DNA from: Deltaproteobacteria bacterium
GTDB lineage: Bacteria > Myxococcota_A > UBA796 > UBA2385
Direction: 5' to 3'
DNA: 64,000 bases
Assembly: GCA_018401435.1 (NCBI GenBank)
Contig: JAGYJW010000004.1
Coordinates: forward strand, 124,001 to 188,000
Part shown: in pieces, positions 17,568-30,751 of the stretch
Layout of the letters: each line of letters opens with the position of its first letter
How positions within the stretch are numbered: the first letter of the stretch is position 1
Program-made: the position numbers and the translations under genes
The notes under the pieces: generated by a model
The model's input: only the letters and a program-made list of their open reading frames with translations
Databases searched by the model: none
What the model was told of the DNA's origin: nothing

Positions 17568-19292
<1,725 letters not shown>

Positions 19293-19472: not shown

Positions 19473-21257
19473 TCAGGGGGGGCCGCTGCGGCCCTTGCGC
19501 TTCAACGAGCCCATGCTGCGTTGAAGCTCCTGACGTTGTCGTAACAAGTCCAGTCTTGACATGTCATCGCCTGTTCCGCAAGCGGCCAGGCGCTGCTCGA
19601 TTTGCGAGATTTCGGCCCTTATCTGGTTCTGCAGCAGGCGATCGAGGATCTGTCGGGCGGCGGGGGCGGCCTGTTCGGCCGAATAGAGGCCCTCGCGCGC
19701 CGCGGCCGCGCGCAAGATGCGCGCAAGCTCGGGATCCTGGGTGGCTTCCATGACCTCGGGCAAGTTCTTCTGCTCCAGCAGCATCGCGATGGCGAGGAGG
19801 GCGGACTCCCGGCGGGTGACCAGGGTGGGTTCGATCTCGGCGATGATCTCGGCGACCTGGGCGGGGTGGTGCAGAACCAGCCAGAGCAGGTGGTTGAGTT
19901 CGACCGTGCCCCGCCACTGGGCGGGCGGGCGCTGGGCCCCCGGTGCCGGGGTGGGCGTGGACTGGCCGATGGCCTCGTTGATGGCACGGGGGTCCATCCA
20001 CAAGGCGCGCTGCAGGCGGGATGCGATCGGATCGCGGGATTCGGGTGGGTAGAGCCGCACCACCGGGGCGAGGTCTCGCAGCACCGACGATCGGCCGCCG
20101 GGGGTGGTGCCATGGCGCTCCATCGCCCGGCGCAGGACCAGCTCGAAGAGGGGCTCGGCCTTGCCCAGGGCGGCCTCGAAGGCCTCGGCCCCCTGCTCTT
20201 GCACGAAGTCGTCGGGGTCCTTGGCGCCATCGAGGGTGAGGCGGCGGGGCTCGATGCCCACCCCCAGAAAGACCTCCATGGAGCGCACGGCCGCCCGCTC
20301 ACCGGCCTCGTCCGAGTCGAAGAGGGCGACCACGGTGCGGGTGAGGGTGCGAACGGCGCGGGCGTGTTCGGCAGTCAGCGCCGTGCCGCAGGTGGCCACG
20401 CTCTCTTGGAAGCCCGCCTGGTGCAGGCTGAGCACGTCGAAGTAGCCCTCGACCACCAACATGCGGCCCTTGCGTTGGATGGCCGTGCGCGCCTGGCGCA
20501 GGCCAAAGAGCACGCTGGACTTCTTGTAGATGGGCGTCTCTGGCGAATTCACGTATTTGGGGGCGTCGGCGCGCGCCCCGGGCAGCACCCGCCCGCCAAA
20601 GGCCACCACCCGGCCGCGGGGGTCTTCGATGGGCAGCAGGATGCGGTCGCGAAAGAGGTCATAGGCGCCCCGGTCCCGGCCGCCGCCCTCGCGGGCCTTG
20701 GCCAGGCCGGCGCTGACGGCGAGGTCGGCGGGAACGCCTTTGCTGTGCAGGAAGTTGAGCAGGCCGTCCCAGCTCTCCGGCGCGTAGCCCACCCGCCAGG
20801 TGTTGAGGGTGTCGGCGCTCATGCCCCGGCTGGCGAGGTATTCCCGAGCCAGCTTGCCCTCGGGGCGGGTCTGCAGGTTGGACTGGAACCAGCCGGCGGC
20901 CAGCTCGCAGACCTCGTGCAGGTCGGCCCGGGCCCGGATGCGCTTGCGCTCATCCGCGCTCAGCTCGCGGTCCTCAATCTGGATGCCCGCCCCAGCCGCG
21001 AGCTCCTTGACCACGTCGGCAAAGGGGATGCCACGCGTCTTCTCGATGAACTTGAAGACGTCGCCGCCCTCTCCACAGCCAAAGCAATGGTAGATGCCCT
21101 TGTGGGGGACCACGCTGAAGCTGGGGCTCTTCTCCTGGTGGAAGGGGCAGAGGCCCATCAGGCTGGCGCCCTTGCGCTGCAGCGTGACCACCTGGGAGAC
21201 CACCTCGACGATGTCGGTGCGCTCGCGGATGGCTTCGATGATGTCCCGGGAGATCAC
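19473..21257 (-). CDS. dnaG: DNA primase DnaG (in frame with murA, no stop between)
   Basis: This primase makes RNA primers at the replication fork. Counting from a possible GTG at 21257 it has 594 residues, normal for the family, and begins with the typical [20 protein letters not shown]. The zinc ribbon is [11 protein letters not shown] with [10 protein letters not shown] (Cys37, His40, Cys58, Cys61). The TOPRIM core has [15 protein letters not shown] and [13 protein letters not shown] with its acidic metal ligands. The C-terminal helicase-binding region is helical. The frame runs open without a stop into the upstream murA, so a MurA-DnaG fusion of 1055 residues is what the sequence literally encodes. 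Whether the GTG is used is unknown; the upstream GGGTGGG is a weak ribosome site. Confidence 0.9.
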
Positions 21258-22640
21258 GCGCGCGCCCACCCTGGGCCGCCAAGGGGAGCGGCCCGGGGGC
21301 TGCTTGCCCGCGGCGAGGCGCTGCGCCGCCGTGGCCAGGCTGCCGCTGCGCACCCGCATGTCGTCGGGCACCCGCGAGACCCGGGCGCCCAGGGCCGCGA
21401 GCTTGTCGTCCAGGCGCTCGTAGCCGCGATCGAGGTGGTAGAGCCGGAGGATCTCGGTCTGGCCCTGGGCGGCCAGGCCCGCGAGCACCAAGGAGGCGCT
21501 GGCCCGCAGGTCGGTGGCCATGACGGTGGCGCCCTTGAGGCCCGCGCTGCCATCAATGAAGGCGCAGTGGCCGTCGATGTGGATGTTGGCGCCCAGCCGC
21601 AGCAGCTCGGCGACATGCATGAAGCGGTTCTCGAAGATGGTCTCGCAGATCTCGCTCTTGCCGCCCGCGACGGTCATCAGGGCCATCCACTGGGCCTGCA
21701 TATCGGTGGGGAAGCCGGGGTGGGGCTGGGTCTCGATGTCCACCGGCAGGAGCGGGCCGCTGCGCCGCACCCGCACGCGGTCCTCGCCCACATCCACGGT
21801 GCAACCCGCCGCCCGCAAGGCGATCAGCAGGGGGCTGAGGTCGTCGGGGCGCAGGCGGGTGACGGTGACGTCGCCGCCGGTGATGGCCGCAGCGACCAGG
21901 TAGGTGCCGGCCTCGATGCGGTCGGGCAGGATGCTGTAGGGCTGCCGGGCGGGGCGCAGGGCCGGCACGCCGTCGACTTCGAGGGTGGCGGTGCCCTCGC
22001 CGGTGATGCGGGCGCCCATGGCACGCAAGAAGCGCGCGAGATCGACGATCTCGGGTTCGCGGGCGGCGTTGTGGATGACGCTGGTGCCATCTGCGAGAAC
22101 GGCCGCCATCAGGATGTTTTCGGTGCCGGTGACCGTGGGCACATCCAGGTGGATCTCGGCCCCGCGCAGGTGGTCGACCGTCCCGTGCACATAGCCCTGG
22201 GCGAGCTCGAAGCGGCAGCCGAGGGCCTCGAGGCCCTTGAGGTGCTGGTCGATGGGGCGCACGCCAATGGCGCAGCCGCCGGGCAAGGACACCCGCGCCG
22301 CGCCGCAGCGTGCCAACAGCGGGCCCAGGGCGAGCACGCTGGCCCGCATCTTGCGAACGAGGTCGTAGGGGGCCTCGTTGAAGGCGACCCGGGTGGTGTC
22401 CAGGCGCACCCGCTGGCCGAAGCTCTGGCCGTCGGGTTCGGGCACCAGCGAGGGGCAACCCAGGCGCCCCAGCAGGGACAGGGTGGTCGAGACGTCCACC
22501 AGGTCGGGGATGTTGTCCAGCTCGTGCTCACCCGGGGCCAGCAGGGTGGAGATGAGGATGGGCAGCGCGGCGTTCTTTGCGCCGCTGGCCGGGACTTCGC
22601 CGCGCAGGGCGATGCCGCCTTCGATGACGAGCTTTTCCAT
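21258..22640 (-). CDS. murA: UDP-N-acetylglucosamine 1-carboxyvinyltransferase (N-terminal part of a MurA-DnaG open frame)
   Basis: MurA transfers enolpyruvate from PEP to UDP-GlcNAc, the first committed step of peptidoglycan synthesis. The N-terminus [20 protein letters not shown], with KNAALPIL after it, is canonical. The catalytic Cys sits in [20 protein letters not shown]. The C-terminal lobe has [16 protein letters not shown] and the end [21 protein letters not shown] normal MurA would stop soon after this. Here about 35 further residues (Arg/Ala/Gly/Pro-rich) run without stop into DnaG. The ATG at 22640 is secure. The enzyme acts in the cytoplasm and is the target of fosfomycin; the sensitive Cys is present. 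Confidence 0.93.
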
Positions 22641-22872
22641 GGAGGACTCGGGTGCGGAGGGGAGGGTTCGGGGAGGGAGAGGATGCGGGCTCGAGGGGGA
22701 TTCGAGCGCGACGCAGAGACCCCGAGGCGGGTGCGGTTGGCCCTCCGGGCGAGGAGCCGGCCGTCTTTGCATCGTAATGGACTGGGTCCCACCCCGGCAA
22801 TACGCAAGCTCCATGCCAGGTCGCGGCGCGGTGGAGTGCCCGGCTACAGGCCGGTCACGATACGATGCTGTC

Positions 22873-25800
22873 GTGAGCCCGCACGCCCCCGACCCCCAGG
22901 CCGCTGCCCCCACGGAAGCCCCGCGTGGCGGGGCGCGTGCATCGTTCGAAAAGATGCGCGGGATGTCGATTCCCGGCGCGATGTTGGAGGGCGCGGACCT
23001 GCGGGGCTTCGACCTGCGCCGTGCCGATCTGCAGGGGGCGCGCCTGTCGGGGGCGCAGCTGGATGGGGCCATCGCCCACGGCGCATGCCTGCGCGGCGCG
23101 GTGTTGACGGGCGCCTCCGCGGTCGGACTCCTGGGACGGGACCTGGACCTGGAGCGGGCGCACCTCTCGGGTGCGGTGCTTCACAGTGCCGTCCTGTGTT
23201 TCGCCGTACTGCTGGAGGCGGACCTCGCGGGCGCCGACCTGTCGGGCGCCGACCTGTCGGGTGCGGATCTTCGGGGTGCGGACCTTCGGGGTGCGGATCT
23301 TCGAGGTGCGGAGCTGTCGGGGGCCGACCTGGCCGGCGCCCGCCTGGAGGGGGCTCGGGTCGAGGGCCTGCGCGGACAGCGGGTCCGCCTGCACCGGGTC
23401 TCTGATCCCGATGGTGCGGCGCTGCGCGCCTTGATCGAGGCCGGCGGCTACACGGGCTTGGTCGCCCCTCTGGTCGGGGCGGGGGTCGCCTCGGGCCGGA
23501 GCGGGTCAGGTGGGCGCGCGCCTGCTCCGGGCCTCGCGCGACAGCCTGTCGGGTCCCTCTCCCCTGTGGGCCCCGGCTGCGGGCAGCCGGCCTGCGCCTG
23601 CGGCTTCGCATCGCCGGGGGCGCCGCCGAGGCCACACCCGCCAGGAGCGGCGGGCCGCCGAGTCCAGGAGCGACAGGCCCGGTGGCGCCGCATCCGCGCC
23701 CAGCGGCAGGCCGATCCGCCAGCGTCGCGCCAGGACCAGGCGGTGAGCGGAACACCGCAGCCGGCGTGCGGAGCGTGCGGCCCGGCGCCTGCGCCACCAG
23801 CCCAGCTTCCGGGTGGGGCCCAGCGCAGCCCTTGCTGGTGGACCTGCCCCGGCGGGTCCTGCGCTTGCCGCGCGCCCTCGGGTGCCGGCGCCGCCGCCGC
23901 CCGGCTGCAGCTGCTGGCCCATCGCCGCGCCAGATACTCCTCGCGCGCACGTGAGATGGGATTGCTGGCGCATCTTCGCGGTGCGGCCAGACGCATCCTC
24001 TCCCGTGCCCGGGCCGTCCAGCCCGGGCCGTCGACGACCGCCCGGGCCGCGGCCGAGGCCGCCCACCAGGCGCGGCTGGAGGCCAGAAGAGGCCCGCCCG
24101 CGCCGCCGGGCGGGCGGGAGGACCGACGCCCAGCGGGCGGCGGCCAGGACGCCCAGGCTCGGCTTGCCGCCGAAGCCCAGTTGGCGGCCCGCCCAGCAGG
24201 CCGATGCCCGCGCGCAGGCCTTGGGCGACGCGGCAGGAGCGGGCCCGCCGCGCCTTACGCCGCCGTCAGGCCGATCTCGCCGATCTTGCGGCGGCGGCCA
24301 GCGCCTTGCAAAGCCCGCCAGGCCCTCGCCGACAGCGCGAGCTGGAGGCGCTGGACCGGCAGCAGGCGGGCGGCCGCGGTCAACGCCAGGCCCCGCCGGG
24401 CCCCTGCGCCCGAAGGGCTCAAAGGCCGCGTCTGGCGCTGCCCGGTCCCGGGGCCTTGCCCCAGGGCCCCAGGGTGGACCTCTGGCGCAGATCTGCGGCG
24501 CAGGCGGCTGGGGGCCCTGAACTGGCCCGGAGCCACGTCTGCGCGAGGCTCGGCTGTCCGGGCGCGCGGCTGGAGGCGCGAATCTGCGAGGAAGCGAGAT
24601 AGAGAGAAGGCGCGGATTTCAGGTGCGCGCCTGGCGGGCATTCGGACAGGGTGGCTGCGGGGCGGGGGTCCGCCTGTCGGGCGCGCGGCTGCGGCGGGCC
24701 AGCCTGGTGGAGCGCCCAGCTGTCAGGTGCCCGCCCTGGTGGACGCGGATCTGCGGGATGCGAGGATCTGCGCGGAGCCGAGCCTCTCGGCGCGGACCTC
24801 ACCGGCGTGGACCTGCGGCGGTGCCGCCTGACCGGGGCCAACCTGCGGGGGGCTCGCCTGAGCGCCGCCCGCATGTCGGATCTCGACCTGCGCGGGCTGT
24901 TCCTGGAAGACGCCACCTTGGACCAGGCCGACCTCGCGGGTTGCCAGTGGGAGGGCGCTGGCGTGCGCGGGGCCGACCTCGCCAGAGGCCCTGGGGCTGT
25001 CGGGTCGGGAGCGCGGGCCCTGGCCGAGCGGGGCGCGCGCACCGGCGAGCCGGGGCCTCGAAGAGAGCTGTTGGGGGGCCTGCGCCTTCCAGCTTCGCGC
25101 GGCCCTGGTCATCCTCGGCCTGGGGCTCGGGGCCTGGCTGGGGGCGCGCTTTCTGGCGGGTCAAGAAGACCCGGCGGTGCTGGCTGAACAAGCCGCCGCC
25201 CTGCGCAGCGAGGCCCCGCTGGACGCCAGCGCCGCCTATGCCAGCCTTGCCGACTTGAGCACCCGGGTGGACGAGCGCGTCGGCTACCTGGTCGAGGCCG
25301 CGGGCCTGGCCGACCTGGGCGGGGACGCCGAGCGCGCCTCGGCCCTGATGGACGAGGCGCTGGTGGTGGCGGGCAGCAGCCCGGGCATCTCGGCGGATGT
25401 GCGCGTGCGCAAGGGGCTCCCGCCTGGGCGGGGGGAGTGGGTGGCGGCCCCGCGAGACGGTGCTGCCGCTGCACTGGGCCTCGAAGGCCACCCGGCCGAG
25501 ACCCGCGCCCGCGCCGTGGTGGTCTGGCAAGGGCGCGCTGCCCTGGACCTGCCCCCGCAAGCCGACGAGGGGGACCCCGTGGCGGCCCTGGTGGGCTCCT
25601 TGGCCGAGCTGCCCGAAGCCGCCGCCGACCTCTACCTCGCTGTGGCCGAGCTTCGCAGCGGCCGTGGCGGGGACCCGCAGCCCTGGGCCAGCTGGACGCG
25701 GCCCGCCGCCCTGGACCTGCCCCTTCGGCCAGGGCTGGCGCCTGCAGGAGAGCCGGGCCCGGGTGCTGGACCGGGCGGGAGGCTGGAGGCGGCCGCCGCC

Positions 25801-28219
25801 CTACTATGCGCTGCTGGCCGAGGCTCCCGACCTCAGCACCCCCCGGGCGGCGCTGGCCCGGCTGGCGCTGGCCGACATTCACCAACGGCGAGGCGCCTGG
25901 ACGAGGCCGCCGCGCTGGTATTGCCCCTGGCCGAGACCGCCGGGGACGCGGGGGTGCGCGGCCGGGCCTTGCTGCTGACCGGGCGCCTGGCCGAACAGGG
26001 CGAGGATGCCACGGCGGCCCTGGCGGCCTACCAGCAGGTGCTGACCCTGGACGGCATCGACGCCGACACCCGCGACGAGGCGCGCATCTCGCCAGCGCGG
26101 AATTGCTGATGGAGGGGGCGCGGGGCCGACGCAGAGGCGGCGATCGCCGGCCTGCCGCCCGATGCTGCGGCCCTGGTGGTGGCCCACGCGCGCCTGGGTG
26201 AGGCCCGGGGCCTGATGGACGACGGCCAGGCCGAAGCCGCCCTCGCCGTCTACGATGCCCTGCTCGAAAATGAAGCATTGATCGATGATCTGCGGCGTGG
26301 CGCCCTCTCTGGGCGGGCCGAGGCCCTGGCCTACCTGGGCGAGCTTTCCGAGGCCACCGAGCTGTGGCGGGCCCTGCTCGCTGAGAACCCGGACGCCGCG
26401 GAGCGTGCCGAGATCGAGCTGCGCCTGGCCTATGGGCTGCTGCAGGGGGGAGAGCCCGCCCAGGGCGATCGGGCCTTCCAGAGCCTCGCCGCCGCATCCG
26501 ACCCGGATGTGCGCTTCCGGGGCCTGTTGGGCCAGGCCGAGGTGGCCTTGAGCGCGGGCGAGCGTTCGCGTGCAGGCCTCGCAGGCAGGTGGCTGACCGG
26601 GCGCCCGACGCCGCCTTCCAGGTGCAGGCCCTGCAAGAGCTGGCGCTGCTATCGGCCGAGGAGGAGCGCCCCGAGGCCGCCCTGGAGGCCTGGCGCCGGC
26701 TGTTGGGCGTGGCGCCGCCGGGCCACCCCTCCATCGCCAACGCGCGCCTGGCGCTGCTGGGGCGCTGTGGAGCCTGGGGCCCACGCCTGGACGAGGCCCT
26801 GGGCATCTGTGAGCAGGCCGTCGCCACCACGACCGGGCTGGATCACGCCGCGGGCCCGGGCAGGCTGCGCCGGAAGGCTGCGAGCGGGCCCGTCACCTGG
26901 AGGAGGCCGCGGGAAGCCAGGTCAGGTTGGCCCGCAGTGCCGGTCCTGCCAGCCGATCGCAGGCGACGCCTGGCTGAGGCCGCCCGCTGCACCTCGCCCT
27001 GGACCAGCCCCGCCGCCGCCGCGCGCCTGGCGCGAGGCTGCCTCCCTTGAGTCAGGCGGTGCCCCTGCCTGCCGCTGCACAGGCCTGGGTGGAGGCCCTG
27101 GAGCAGCTTGGCGCGCCCGCAGCCCTGGCGGCAGCGCGGGCCGGGCGGGACGCCCTGGTGGGCCGCCCCCGCCCTGGCCAGCCCCTGCTGTTGCAGTCGG
27201 CCCCAGGCCCGGTCCCAGGGCCGCCCCGACAGGCCGCCCGCATGCTGGAGCGCGCCTTGTCCTTGCCCCTGTCCACCGCCGAGCGCGCCGGCGCGCTGGT
27301 GGAGCTGGGTGACACCTGGTTGGAGGCCGGGCAGATCGCCGCGGCCCAAGCCCGCTTCGCCGAGGTCGCCGATCTGGAGGGGGTGGAGGATCCCACCCGC
27401 TTCGCCGCCGCCATGGGGCGGGCCGAGGCCCTGCACGCCGCCAGGGGGATCTGCCCGGCGCCTTGGATGCGCTCTCCCAGCTCGATCCCCCCGATCCCAG
27501 CAGCCGCCGCTGGTGGCTGGAGACCCGGGCGGGCCTGCAGGTGGAGGCGGGCGATGCCGAAGCCGCGCTGGTCACCTGGATGGCCTTAGTGGAGGCCGCC
27601 GCCCGATGTCTCCGGGGGCCCGCACCGCGGCCTGCGCGGGGCGGCCGACGCCGAGCTGACCCTGGACCGGCCCCAGGCAGCGCTGGCCCTCTACGAGCAG
27701 GCCGCCGCCAGCGCGACGGACGGTCCGGCTTCGGGCTGGGCGCGCCTGGGCCTCGCGGCGGCCCTGGCGGAGCTGGGGGGGGGACCGGGCCCGGAGCCAG
27801 GCCCCATTTGTGCGGTCCCACGCCGATCCGGAGGTCCAGCTCCAGGCGGCCCTGGAGAGCGCGCGCATTTCCGCTGGGAATGAAGACTGGGACTCCGTTG
27901 TCGCTGTGTTGGAAGGTGTGGATGCCGCACCGCTGGGCCCCGGCTGGGACGCCTCGCTGGTGGAGGTGCGGGCGGCAGCCCAGGTGGGCCAGGGTGAGCC
28001 GGACGCCGCGGCCGAGGCCTGGGCGGCCCTGGCCGCCGCTGGCCCGAGAGCGAAGAGGCCCTGCTGCCGGCCTGGCTGGGGCTGGCCGATCCCTGGCCCT
28101 GGCCCGCGGTAGTCTGCAAGAGGCCCCGCCAGTGGGCCGACCGCGCCGTGCTGCTGGCCCGGGACCCCGGCTACCTGGACCGGGCGCGCGCCCTGGTGGC
28201 CCGGCTGGACGGGGGATGA
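22873..28219 (+). pseudogene. Giant pentapeptide-repeat / coiled-coil / membrane / TPR protein with many frameshifts
   Basis: Repaired, this would be about 1780 residues. From a GTG at 22873, residues 30-185 are pentapeptide repeats ([20 protein letters not shown]). From about 23500 the coding signal hops between frames. It passes through an Ala/Arg/Gln coiled coil (pieces [20 protein letters not shown] at 24234 and [13 protein letters not shown]), then returns to pentapeptide repeats ([20 protein letters not shown] near 24790). A single membrane helix (LRAALVILGLGLGAWLGARF, about 25096) precedes a long TPR-like region to 28219. Examples there are DEAAALVLPLAETAGDAGVR and AEAALAVYDALLENEALIDD. 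At least a dozen frame switches occur, yet each segment stays coding-like. The stop overlaps the next ATG (ATGA at 28216). Either recent decay or local assembly errors could explain it. The family is not recognised as a whole. Its 5' end is divergent from murA, with a 232-base gap that shows nothing clear. Confidence 0.65.
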
Positions 28220-29747
28220 GGCCGGCGCCGGGGTCGGACCGCTGGCCGCCCTCCCTCTTCGGCGCCTGCCGCCCTGCCTGTGAAGATCTCGACCAGGTGC
28301 CCATCCTCACCGAGGCCGCCCCAGACCCGGTCGCTTGGCAGGCCGAGATCGCGGGCACGCTATCGGACTTCCTGGCCTGGAGCGGCGAGGGGACCTGCTT
28401 GTCGGCGGTGTCGGTGGGGCTGCCCTCCGCAATCCAGGGCGACCCCCGCTCTCCGAGGGCCTTCGACCGCTGGCAGCGGCGCATCCACCTCGCGCCGGAT
28501 CTCGACCTGCAGGCCGTGGCCCCGGTGCTGCAGCACGAGCTCTGCCACGCCTGGGACGCCTCTCGCGGCTTCGTCTCCGATGAGCACCCTGAGCTTTTTC
28601 CCGCGGAGCAGCTGCCCGCGGCCTGCATACCGCCACCCATCCGGCAGGGACCGGCGGCGCGAGAGGTCTTCGCCTTCTTGTGCGGGGTGGGCCCGGTGGA
28701 CCCGGCCCTGGTGCGCAGCCTGGATGCCGGCGGCTGCGATGCGGGCTTGACCCCGGGCTGGCGCTTCGTGCTCGACCAGGTCTACCCCGAGGCTCCGGCT
28801 GGGGAGCCCGCGGCCCTGGGCGCCGCCCTGCCGGCCGCCATCCGGCAGGTGCCCATCGCTGATCCGCCCGCCCAGCGCATCTACGACGTCGCCTTCGTGG
28901 GGGATGGGCTCTGGATCCTCAGCCTGGAGCACCCGCCGCCCACCTGGGAGCTCAACCGCCTGGACCTGCTCACGGGCGAATGGACCACCCACCGGCCCCT
29001 GCCAGCGACCGATCCGCTGCCCGGCGCATTCCTGGTGGCGGGCCCGGAGGAGGGGCGCCTGGTGGCCCGCTGGGGGGAGGTCTGGACCGCCTTTCGCCTG
29101 CCGCCGGATGGCGGCGAAGCCAGCCCGGTGGTCAGCGTCGGTGCGCCGCCCAGCTTTGAATCCGGCGCCTTGTGGTGGCAGGGCCGGCTGTGGCAGCTCG
29201 TTGGAGATGGGCTGCTGGAGCACGATCCCATCGACGGAAGCAGCGGCGTCCACCCCTTTCCCGAGGGGCTCTCGGGCCTGTCGAACCGCAGCCTGCACCC
29301 CCGCTCTGGCGGCTTGGGCTTTGTGGGCACGGTGGGCGGCCACGCGGTGCAAGGCTTCACGGACGGGGGCGGGGCCTGGTCTCATGCAGCCGCCCCCACC
29401 CGCCGACCGCTAGTCCGGAGCTGGCCGATGGGCGCCTGGTGGGGGGAGGGGATCTGCGGGGCCTCGGCTTGCCCGCGCTGGCCTTGCGCGGCTGGACCCG
29501 GCCCGAGGCCGAGCTGCTTGCGGTGATCGACCCCGAGGCTGGCGCCTATTGGCTGGGCGGCTGCTTCGACCCGGCCCTGGTCCCTTCGGATGCGGGGGAT
29601 CTGGGCGCCTGGGTCAGCTCGGATGGCGTGATCTGGTTGCTGGGCGAAGGGCAGGAGGGGCTCACCCTGCTGGCCATCACGCCGGGCGGGGAGTCCGATC
29701 GCGATCGCAGGGCAGATCGGCTCAATGTCGGCGGTGGGCGTCCGTAG
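28216..29747 (+). CDS. Putative HExxH-containing protein with beta-propeller-like C-terminus, frameshifted
   Basis: This gene is coupled to the preceding one by ATGA. Repaired length is about 510 residues. Near residue 115 is VAPVLQHELCHAWDASRG, an HExxH zinc-peptidase-like motif preceded by hydrophobic residues. A downstream EVFAFLCG could supply a further acidic residue. From about residue 210 the protein becomes strand-rich with short repeated blades (VAFVGDGLWILSLEHPPP, FESGALWWQGRLWQLVGDGL, GGLGFVGTVGGHAVQGF), suggesting a propeller. The frame changes near 29400, where HAAAPT continues as PELADGRLVGGGDLRGLGL in another frame. No signal peptide is visible. Peptidase activity is a possibility, not a conclusion; a third zinc ligand is not identified. 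Confidence 0.6.
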
Positions 29748-29797: not shown

Positions 29798-30751
29798 ATG
29801 ACGGATTTTCACGCCGCACACACGCGCGCACCGCAGATCTTCTGCGAGCCGAACCCGACCGATGAGGTCACTGTCGCGGACCGCGTCGAGCGCCTGCAGA
29901 TCCCGATGGATCGCCGGCGGCCCACCTTGACGCTGCTGTCGGGCATCGAGGCGGGGCGGCAGTTTGCGTTGGCCCAGGGGCGCACCATCCTGGGGCGCGG
30001 CTCGGAGGCCGACGTGGTCCTCGACGAGGACGGCGTGTCGCGGCAGCATTGCGCCATCGACGTGTACAGCGGGGGACAGGCCTTCATCACGGATCTGCGG
30101 AGCACGAATGGCACCGGCGTGGACGGCCAGGTGGTGGGCGACGCCGCAATCCCCTTGACCGATGGCGCCCTGCTGGCCCTTGGGGGCTCCTTGACCCTCA
30201 AATTCGCCCTGCGCCACGAGGTGGAGGAGAAGGTCCAGCACAGCCTCTACAACGCGGCGGTGCGCGACGGCCTGACCGGCCTCTACAACAAGCGCTACCT
30301 GCAGGAGCGCATGGAGCAGGAATTCGCCTGGGCCCTTCGGAATGGGCGCCCACTGTCCATTCTCGTCGTTGACCTCGACTTCTTCAAGCGGGTGAACGAC
30401 CAGCACGGCCACCCGGCCGGGGACGAGGTGCTGCGGGTTGCGGCGGGCCGCATGCAGGAGGGCCTGCGGAGGGAGGACGTGCTCGCCCGCTTTGGCGGCG
30501 AAGAATTCGTCATCCTCATGCGGGAGACGCCCGCGCAGCGGGGTTGGGAGGTGGGGCAGCGGGTGGCCGAGGCCGTCCGCAGGGCGCCCGTGCACTTCGG
30601 GGCCCTGCGGATCCCCATCACGGCCTCCATGGGGCTGGCCAGCAGCGAGGAGCCGCGGGTGCTCCGGGTGGCGGATCTCTTCGCCCGGGCCGATCGGCGG
30701 CTGTACAAGGCCAAGTCCAATGGACGGAACCAGGTGGTCGCCCGGGACTGA
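29798..30751 (+). CDS. FHA-GGDEF diguanylate cyclase
   Basis: This is a 317-residue soluble protein. Residues 40-140 are an FHA phosphothreonine-binding domain: GRTILGRGSEADVVL, then VSRQHCAI and DLRSTNGTGVDG. Residues 155-315 are a GGDEF domain beginning DGLTGLYNKRYL. The active-site loop is ARFGGEEFVIL (GGEEF, competent), and RRED five residues upstream is a product-inhibition I-site (RxxD). The enzyme should make c-di-GMP from two GTP, with recruitment or control through a phosphorylated partner. TCAGGAG lies upstream of ATG 29798. The window also holds a PilZ receptor at 3.4-5.3 kb, a possible downstream reader. The gene ends six bases from an opposing gene. Confidence 0.93.
   Translation: MTDFHAAHTRAPQIFCEPNPTDEVTVADRVERLQIPMDRRRPTLTLLSGIEAGRQFALAQGRTILGRGSEADVVLDEDGVSRQHCAIDVYSGGQAFITDLRSTNGTGVDGQVVGDAAIPLTDGALLALGGSLTLKFALRHEVEEKVQHSLYNAAVRDGLTGLYNKRYLQERMEQEFAWALRNGRPLSILVVDLDFFKRVNDQHGHPAGDEVLRVAAGRMQEGLRREDVLARFGGEEFVILMRETPAQRGWEVGQRVAEAVRRAPVHFGALRIPITASMGLASSEEPRVLRVADLFARADRRLYKAKSNGRNQVVARD

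Follow-up and report, generated by a model that had tools for sequence, protein, structure and literature searches.

Few pentapeptide-repeat (PPR) proteins have a known function, and membrane-bound examples such as HglK carry their transmembrane (TM) helices first and the PPR last (PMC8145042). HglK, which has effects on septal junctions and on where glycolipids are placed (PMC8145042 and its reference 25), is a protein of 727 aa with four predicted N-terminal TM helices and a C-terminal PPR, and neither a coiled coil nor TPRs are described there (PMC8145042). Among TPR proteins, FimV/HubP positions or acts on envelope machines (PMC5285504) and FimV, a TPR hub, binds a diguanylate cyclase in Pseudomonas (PMC7033161). 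YbgF and PorW/SprE form periplasmic TPR solenoids. The gyrase-protecting proteins MfpA and Qnr, built as a PPR right-handed beta-helix, are small and soluble.

We describe here a giant gene, located within a 64,000-nucleotide stretch of DNA (the window), whose predicted product carries both kinds of repeat in one chain. Codon statistics trained on the intact window genes were used to score the region 22873-28219 after translation in three frames; the first PPR block reads in frame from GTG 22873. The parts are as follows:

22873..28219, + strand: giant PPR-linker-PPR-TM-TPR gene, frame-broken here; would be ~1,780 codons without the breaks (sequence left uncorrected)
22966..23382, + strand: first pentapeptide-repeat block (PPR1), in frame with GTG 22873; Pfam PF00805, 6.7e-35
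23383..24535, + strand: Ala/Arg/Gln-rich linker, frame uncertain
24536..24993, + strand: second pentapeptide-repeat block (PPR2), pieces in three frames; motifs at 24536-24986, orthologues aligned
25093..25152, + strand: single membrane helix LRAALVILGLGLGAWLGARF
25165..28216, + strand: TPR solenoid, ~1,017 codons, ~29 repeats if 35 aa each; stop codon TGA 28217-28219

Like the polar hubs FimV, HubP and TspA, the giant would be large, cross the inner membrane once, contain an acidic TPR part and, as proposed below, have a scaffold role. In FimV, however, the LysM domain is periplasmic and the TPRs (three predicted) are cytoplasmic, whereas the giant has ~29 TPRs predicted to be periplasmic, PPR blocks and no LysM, none being detected in Pfam scans of four orthologues. 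FimV/HubP is the nearest analogue in logic and not a relative, the order of parts being inverted and no homology shown. The giant also departs from the HglK-type order, as its conserved TM helix is C-terminal of the PPR blocks. YbgF and PorW/SprE have the TPR fold in common with it but are far shorter, are without PPR and give NCBIfam scores far below cut-off. Similarly, MfpA and Qnr share the PPR beta-helix, but the giant falls under the curated equivalog cut-offs (NCBIfam; 77 bits versus 240-360 or more). The preliminary description of this DNA knew of no protein with such an order of parts and our survey agrees, as no description of a PPR-linker-PPR-TM-TPR combination was found in the open-licence literature. 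The giant family thus consists of known repeat folds in a combination without a description found.

The window pieces of the giant are not a product of chance, because a profile (A4) of 19 orthologues matches them at 2.1e-83, across one in-frame stop, and a 771 aa read-through of the pieces is 40-46% identical to intact single-frame orthologues, with E down to 2.8e-110. Translation, Pfam and profile A4 thereby located the coding pieces in successive frames where they had been claimed. The Ala/Arg/Gln coiled coil, also claimed earlier, is favoured by the orthologue linkers; the window linker (~23383-24535) itself is not reliably readable in frame, and the coiled-coil reading therefore rests on orthologues.

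Querying with the read-through of the window pieces detected intact homologues across much of the order. Complete single open frames of 1,591-3,312 codons encode PPR, linker, PPR, one membrane helix and 800-1,060 residues of TPR: G018 and G023 (1,591 codons each, stop to stop), G026 (2,075), G002 (3,312), G032 (2,682), G054 (2,462), G017 (2,001) and G038 (2,278), together with G030 (2,501) and G061 (2,097), these last two being judged from frame length and profile match only. Further orthologue frames are found in G044 (2,331 codons, beginning within 2 codons of the contig start) and G050 (3,714 codons, running on beyond the stretch examined, with murA on the same contig at that end). Pfam detects PPR at 1e-40 to 1e-63 and TPR_19 at 1e-8 to 1e-21 in four orthologues, and alignment of 19 orthologues over PPR2, the TM helix and the TPR gives 44% mean column identity, with a conserved GALGLSxxxRxxLxxRGA immediately N-terminal of the membrane helix. 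The ten complete frames are unsplit at the proposed joins, in agreement with the earlier view of one polypeptide with this order of parts. Splitting into separate genes at those joins had been named as the observation that would overturn it, and one distant homologue, in an f3 genome (G020, L176:2088-5459), does carry the TM-TPR half alone, without PPR and away from murA; thus, the PPR and TM-TPR halves are separable in one lineage. A homologue in G063 has the order PPR-TM-TPR without a coiled linker. Overall, the orthologues show, so far as parts can be predicted from sequence, an architecture of PPR, variable linker, PPR, one conserved membrane helix and near-constant TPR.

Linker length ranges from ~110 residues (G023) to ~1,770 (G002, in which the linker contains a 120-residue tandem repeat) and ~2,080 (G050). 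Linker composition is 65-83% A/R/E/Q/L/K/D, mostly helix-like, in the seven measured orthologues other than G017, which has an extra PPR and a PEPE stretch in place of a helix-like linker. The C-terminal (TPR) side measures about 934-1,057 aa wherever the 3' end of an f1, f2 or f6 gene is complete and 795 in G017, while the N side varies from 555 to >2,200 aa among orthologues. The near-constancy of the one beside the variability of the other suggests that the TPR is a size-constrained solenoid and the linker an unconstrained spacer.

With respect to topology, every measured orthologue (18 of 18) is more positively charged over the 30 residues N-terminal of the helix than over the 30 C-terminal of it, and the C-terminal side has a net negative charge overall. 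No signal peptide was seen ahead of PPR1 on inspection by eye, without a predictor. The charge bias and the lack of a visible signal peptide support a cytoplasmic N-terminus, PPR and linker and a periplasmic TPR, the same arrangement, beta helix inside and solenoid outside the inner membrane, that was proposed at the outset. It is given as a prediction because some orthologues (G018, G023, G024 and G038) have extra hydrophobic stretches ahead of the linker or second PPR block, which could alter their topology.

Assignment of the repeats is based on profile and structural matches. Pentapeptide repeats were detected by PF00805 on the window piece and on intact G023 (6.7e-63). Tandem 34-residue helix-turn-helix repeats typical of TPR were recognized by PF14559 on G023 (2.3e-21), by an AF2 model of window 26116-26580, a helical repeat with pLDDT 83.5, and by profile matches to engineered and consensus TPR structures in the PDB, down to 1.1e-18. 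Foldseek with the window TPR piece returned many TPR proteins among its best matches, including the YbgF TPR (2xev), none at E<=0.001. A single-sequence AF2 model of window PPR1 gave a period-5 strand pattern; it was not relied on, being of low confidence (mean pLDDT 49.9; ~70 over residues 120-160).

Distribution of the giant is restricted to one lineage. Profile A4 at E<=1e-10 detects it in 37 of 71 genomes of one Myxococcota class, a count that includes a partial, TPR-only match (G067). Carriers belong to families f1, f2, f5, f6 and f7 plus one f3 genome, and 0 of 21 f4 genomes match; nearly every carrier has about one copy per genome. A scan of 379 genomes of the phylum at 1e-20 yielded 36 matches, all of the same class; as the top 4 candidates per genome were scored, distant members could be missed. 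A Corallococcus genome, representing the classical myxobacteria, was searched directly and gave no match. As a specificity control, a scan of genome contigs retrieved only generic PPR proteins, mostly cyanobacterial, with the TM-TPR core encoded at 0 of 80 loci. Contig breaks hide some members, as in G046 and G052, in which the TM-TPR part was not found and a PPR gene start beside murA runs to the contig end.

The surroundings of the giant are conserved upstream and more variable downstream. In the window, the neighbouring genes are:

17568..19292, - strand: rpoD (sigma-70), part of a conserved block
19473..21257, - strand: dnaG, with an approximate start; belongs to the conserved rpoD-dnaG-murA block
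21369..22640, - strand: murA, divergent neighbour, conserved in 12/13 testable loci
28216..29747, + strand: HExxH (HELCHAWD) gene, putative metallopeptidase-like lipoprotein; ATGA overlap with the giant, frame-broken near 29400
29798..30751, + strand: FHA-GGDEF gene, putative diguanylate cyclase; Pfam GGDEF 5.1e-43, FHA 1.9e-16

Thirteen loci retain 1 kb or more of upstream DNA, and in all but the distant G020 (12 of 13) murA, a cell-wall gene, lies divergent from the giant, with dnaG and rpoD next to it wherever the contig is long enough. This link may be merely a conserved chromosomal place. The RpoD of G026 is 72% identical to the window RpoD. Downstream, a beta-propeller-like lipoprotein gene occurs 0-2.6 kb from the giant in 15 loci (f1, f2, f3 and f6) and an FHA-GGDEF gene follows in 5 f1/f6 loci. 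The propeller lipoprotein is present in 30 of 63 genomes of the order; at the threshold of this order-wide search, neither f5 nor the window genome has it. Neither of the two downstream genes always accompanies the giant, as f5 genomes carry the giant without the propeller and in genus g8 the best propeller match is on a contig other than that of the giant. Family f4, which is without the giant, was checked for split halves beside murA and no PPR half was seen in the flanks, which contain RNA methyltransferase-like and DnaK-like genes or others. In one f4 genome (G033) the propeller lipoprotein gene directly adjoins murA, as though the giant had once separated the two and was then lost.

The order of parts, together with a fixed TPR length and a free linker length, leads us to infer that the giant is a single-pass inner-membrane scaffold or hub that would anchor machinery of the envelope or cell wall to a component of the cell interior, a reading preferred tentatively and placed just short of probable. 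The PPR blocks and rod would form a cytoplasmic platform of freely variable reach, up to ~300 nm if the longest linker is one continuous helix, and the fixed-length solenoid would dock particular partners, either periplasmic or attached to the outer membrane, following a FimV/HubP-like logic with opposite topology. Conserved neighbours offer candidate partners, the propeller lipoprotein outside and the FHA diguanylate cyclase inside, alongside the co-location with murA; naming these two is a guess. The lack of a catalytic domain in the giant counts against the hub reading, as do the patchy occurrence of both downstream neighbours, the extra hydrophobic stretches of some orthologues and the lone TM-TPR half of G020. 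A more specific version, in which an undescribed lineage-specific hub of cytoplasmic beta-helix and rod, one helix and a 1,000-residue periplasmic TPR would organise envelope assembly with the propeller lipoprotein and the diguanylate cyclase, is possible and rather doubtful.

Other functions were weighed against the scaffold. The giant could belong to a machine for envelope export or for glycan/lipoprotein assembly, its TPR acting like those of BcsC/PgaA, Slam or PorW/SprE and its cytoplasmic part sensing or gating supply. Weak TPR matches (TPR_Slam 0.0016; PorW/SprE 3e-18, far under cut-off) and a lipoprotein as the commonest downstream gene point in this direction, but such matches are generic to TPR and no conserved beta-barrel, polymerase or secretion gene adjoins the giant in the loci examined, leaving this an unlikely account. 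Alternatively, the PPR blocks might be MfpA/Qnr-like gyrase DNA mimics whose activity the rest of the protein tethers to the membrane, for example in chromosome organisation beside dnaG/rpoD. Their similarity to MfpA/Qnr models, in the 1e-21 range, is expected of any PPR and at 77 bits remains under the cut-offs given above; moreover, the fold alone is no predictor of activity, and a role of this kind is very improbable. The preliminary description had suggested that the giant and the adjacent HExxH gene may act together, which would make them a protease-scaffold pair. The ATGA overlap on which this was based is real, being present in the window and in a second contig of the same genome (C11). 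However, a profile of 14 HExxH homologues detected the gene, even at E=10, at 0 of the 27 orthologous loci that have 1 kb or more of downstream DNA, so that the answer to whether it always follows the giant is negative. As a neighbour it was seen in the window genome only; homologues are found elsewhere, beside the pyruvate phosphate dikinase gene (ppdK) in G002, G005 and G008. The flanks rule out the HExxH protein as a conserved partner, and a functional pair is thus unsupported and extremely improbable.

A different objection is that the window copy is a true decaying pseudogene. The giant contains about 20 frame switches (21 by Viterbi), whereas 19 other genes of the window have 0-2 apiece. 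The switches are limited to the region in which the GC content of the window peaks (74-78% per 2 kb), which the giant occupies. C11, a separate contig of 3,869 bases from the same genome (G000), covers window 25490-29356; between the two there are 52 substitutions and 69 indels, the latter nearly all of 1-2 nt. Over the shared stretch, Viterbi frame switches number 10 in the window and 4 in C11; C11 is in one frame from 1 to about 1760 where the window breaks, and the converse holds at places where the window reads cleanly. If the two contigs came from diverged strains, substitutions should predominate and indels that break the frame should be few, whereas here indels outnumber substitutions. 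The frame breaks are therefore most likely a local assembly or consensus error in the 74-78% GC stretch, as read from these two contigs, and from the same comparison a genuine pseudogene was rejected as highly unlikely.

A gene whose frame is broken in a draft assembly can therefore be the sign of a large, conserved product that automated annotation would overlook. In the giant family, two PPR blocks hold a fixed position with respect to one membrane helix and a very large TPR solenoid, an arrangement conserved across several families of one class and mostly located beside murA. As the abundant pentapeptide-repeat proteins are mostly without known function, the family provides a testable system for the role of a membrane-tethered PPR. 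Finally, the giant suggests that this uncultured myxobacterial lineage may possess an envelope-spanning hub of its own.

Contig ends fall within the giant gene in many orthologues, indicating that assemblies break at this gene. In genome G002 (locus L056), the linker is ∼1,770 residues long, coiled-coil-like, and contains a 120-residue tandem repeat with 79% identity at that offset. In the window's own genome, the separate contig C11 (L020) is a short, unmerged second copy of part of the giant-gene locus, so high-GC genes elsewhere in the assembly may be duplicated or broken as well.

A TACGAT-like −10 hexamer is observed ∼8–10 bases upstream of a GTG start in several orthologues (window 22859-22873; L053, L055 and L059), which could point to a leaderless mRNA.

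At 15 loci, the giant gene is followed by a gene for a secreted beta-propeller-like lipoprotein, for example:

L068:5612-6691, (-), beta-propeller-like lipoprotein gene
L176:1051-2034, (-), beta-propeller-like lipoprotein gene
L060:5583-6740, (-), beta-propeller-like lipoprotein gene

A Pfam search with the lipoprotein returned no match, the putative propeller fold being assigned by repeat pattern. In G033, a family f4 genome lacking the giant gene, the lipoprotein gene (L187:4001-5002) directly adjoins murA. The f3 genome G020 carries the TM-TPR core on its own (L176:2088-5459, (-)), pentapeptide repeats being absent; this core is not near murA, yet the lipoprotein gene is retained downstream.

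The HExxH protein (window 28216-29747) belongs to a family whose 14 sequences have HE(L/F)CHAxD in common, with an ExFA motif further downstream, suggesting likeness to gluzincin-type metallopeptidases. Homologues adjoin a pyruvate phosphate dikinase gene in three genomes. In C11, the HExxH protein N-terminus reads GVGPLAALLFGAC, differing through indels from the window at the same place, and this reading resembles a lipobox.
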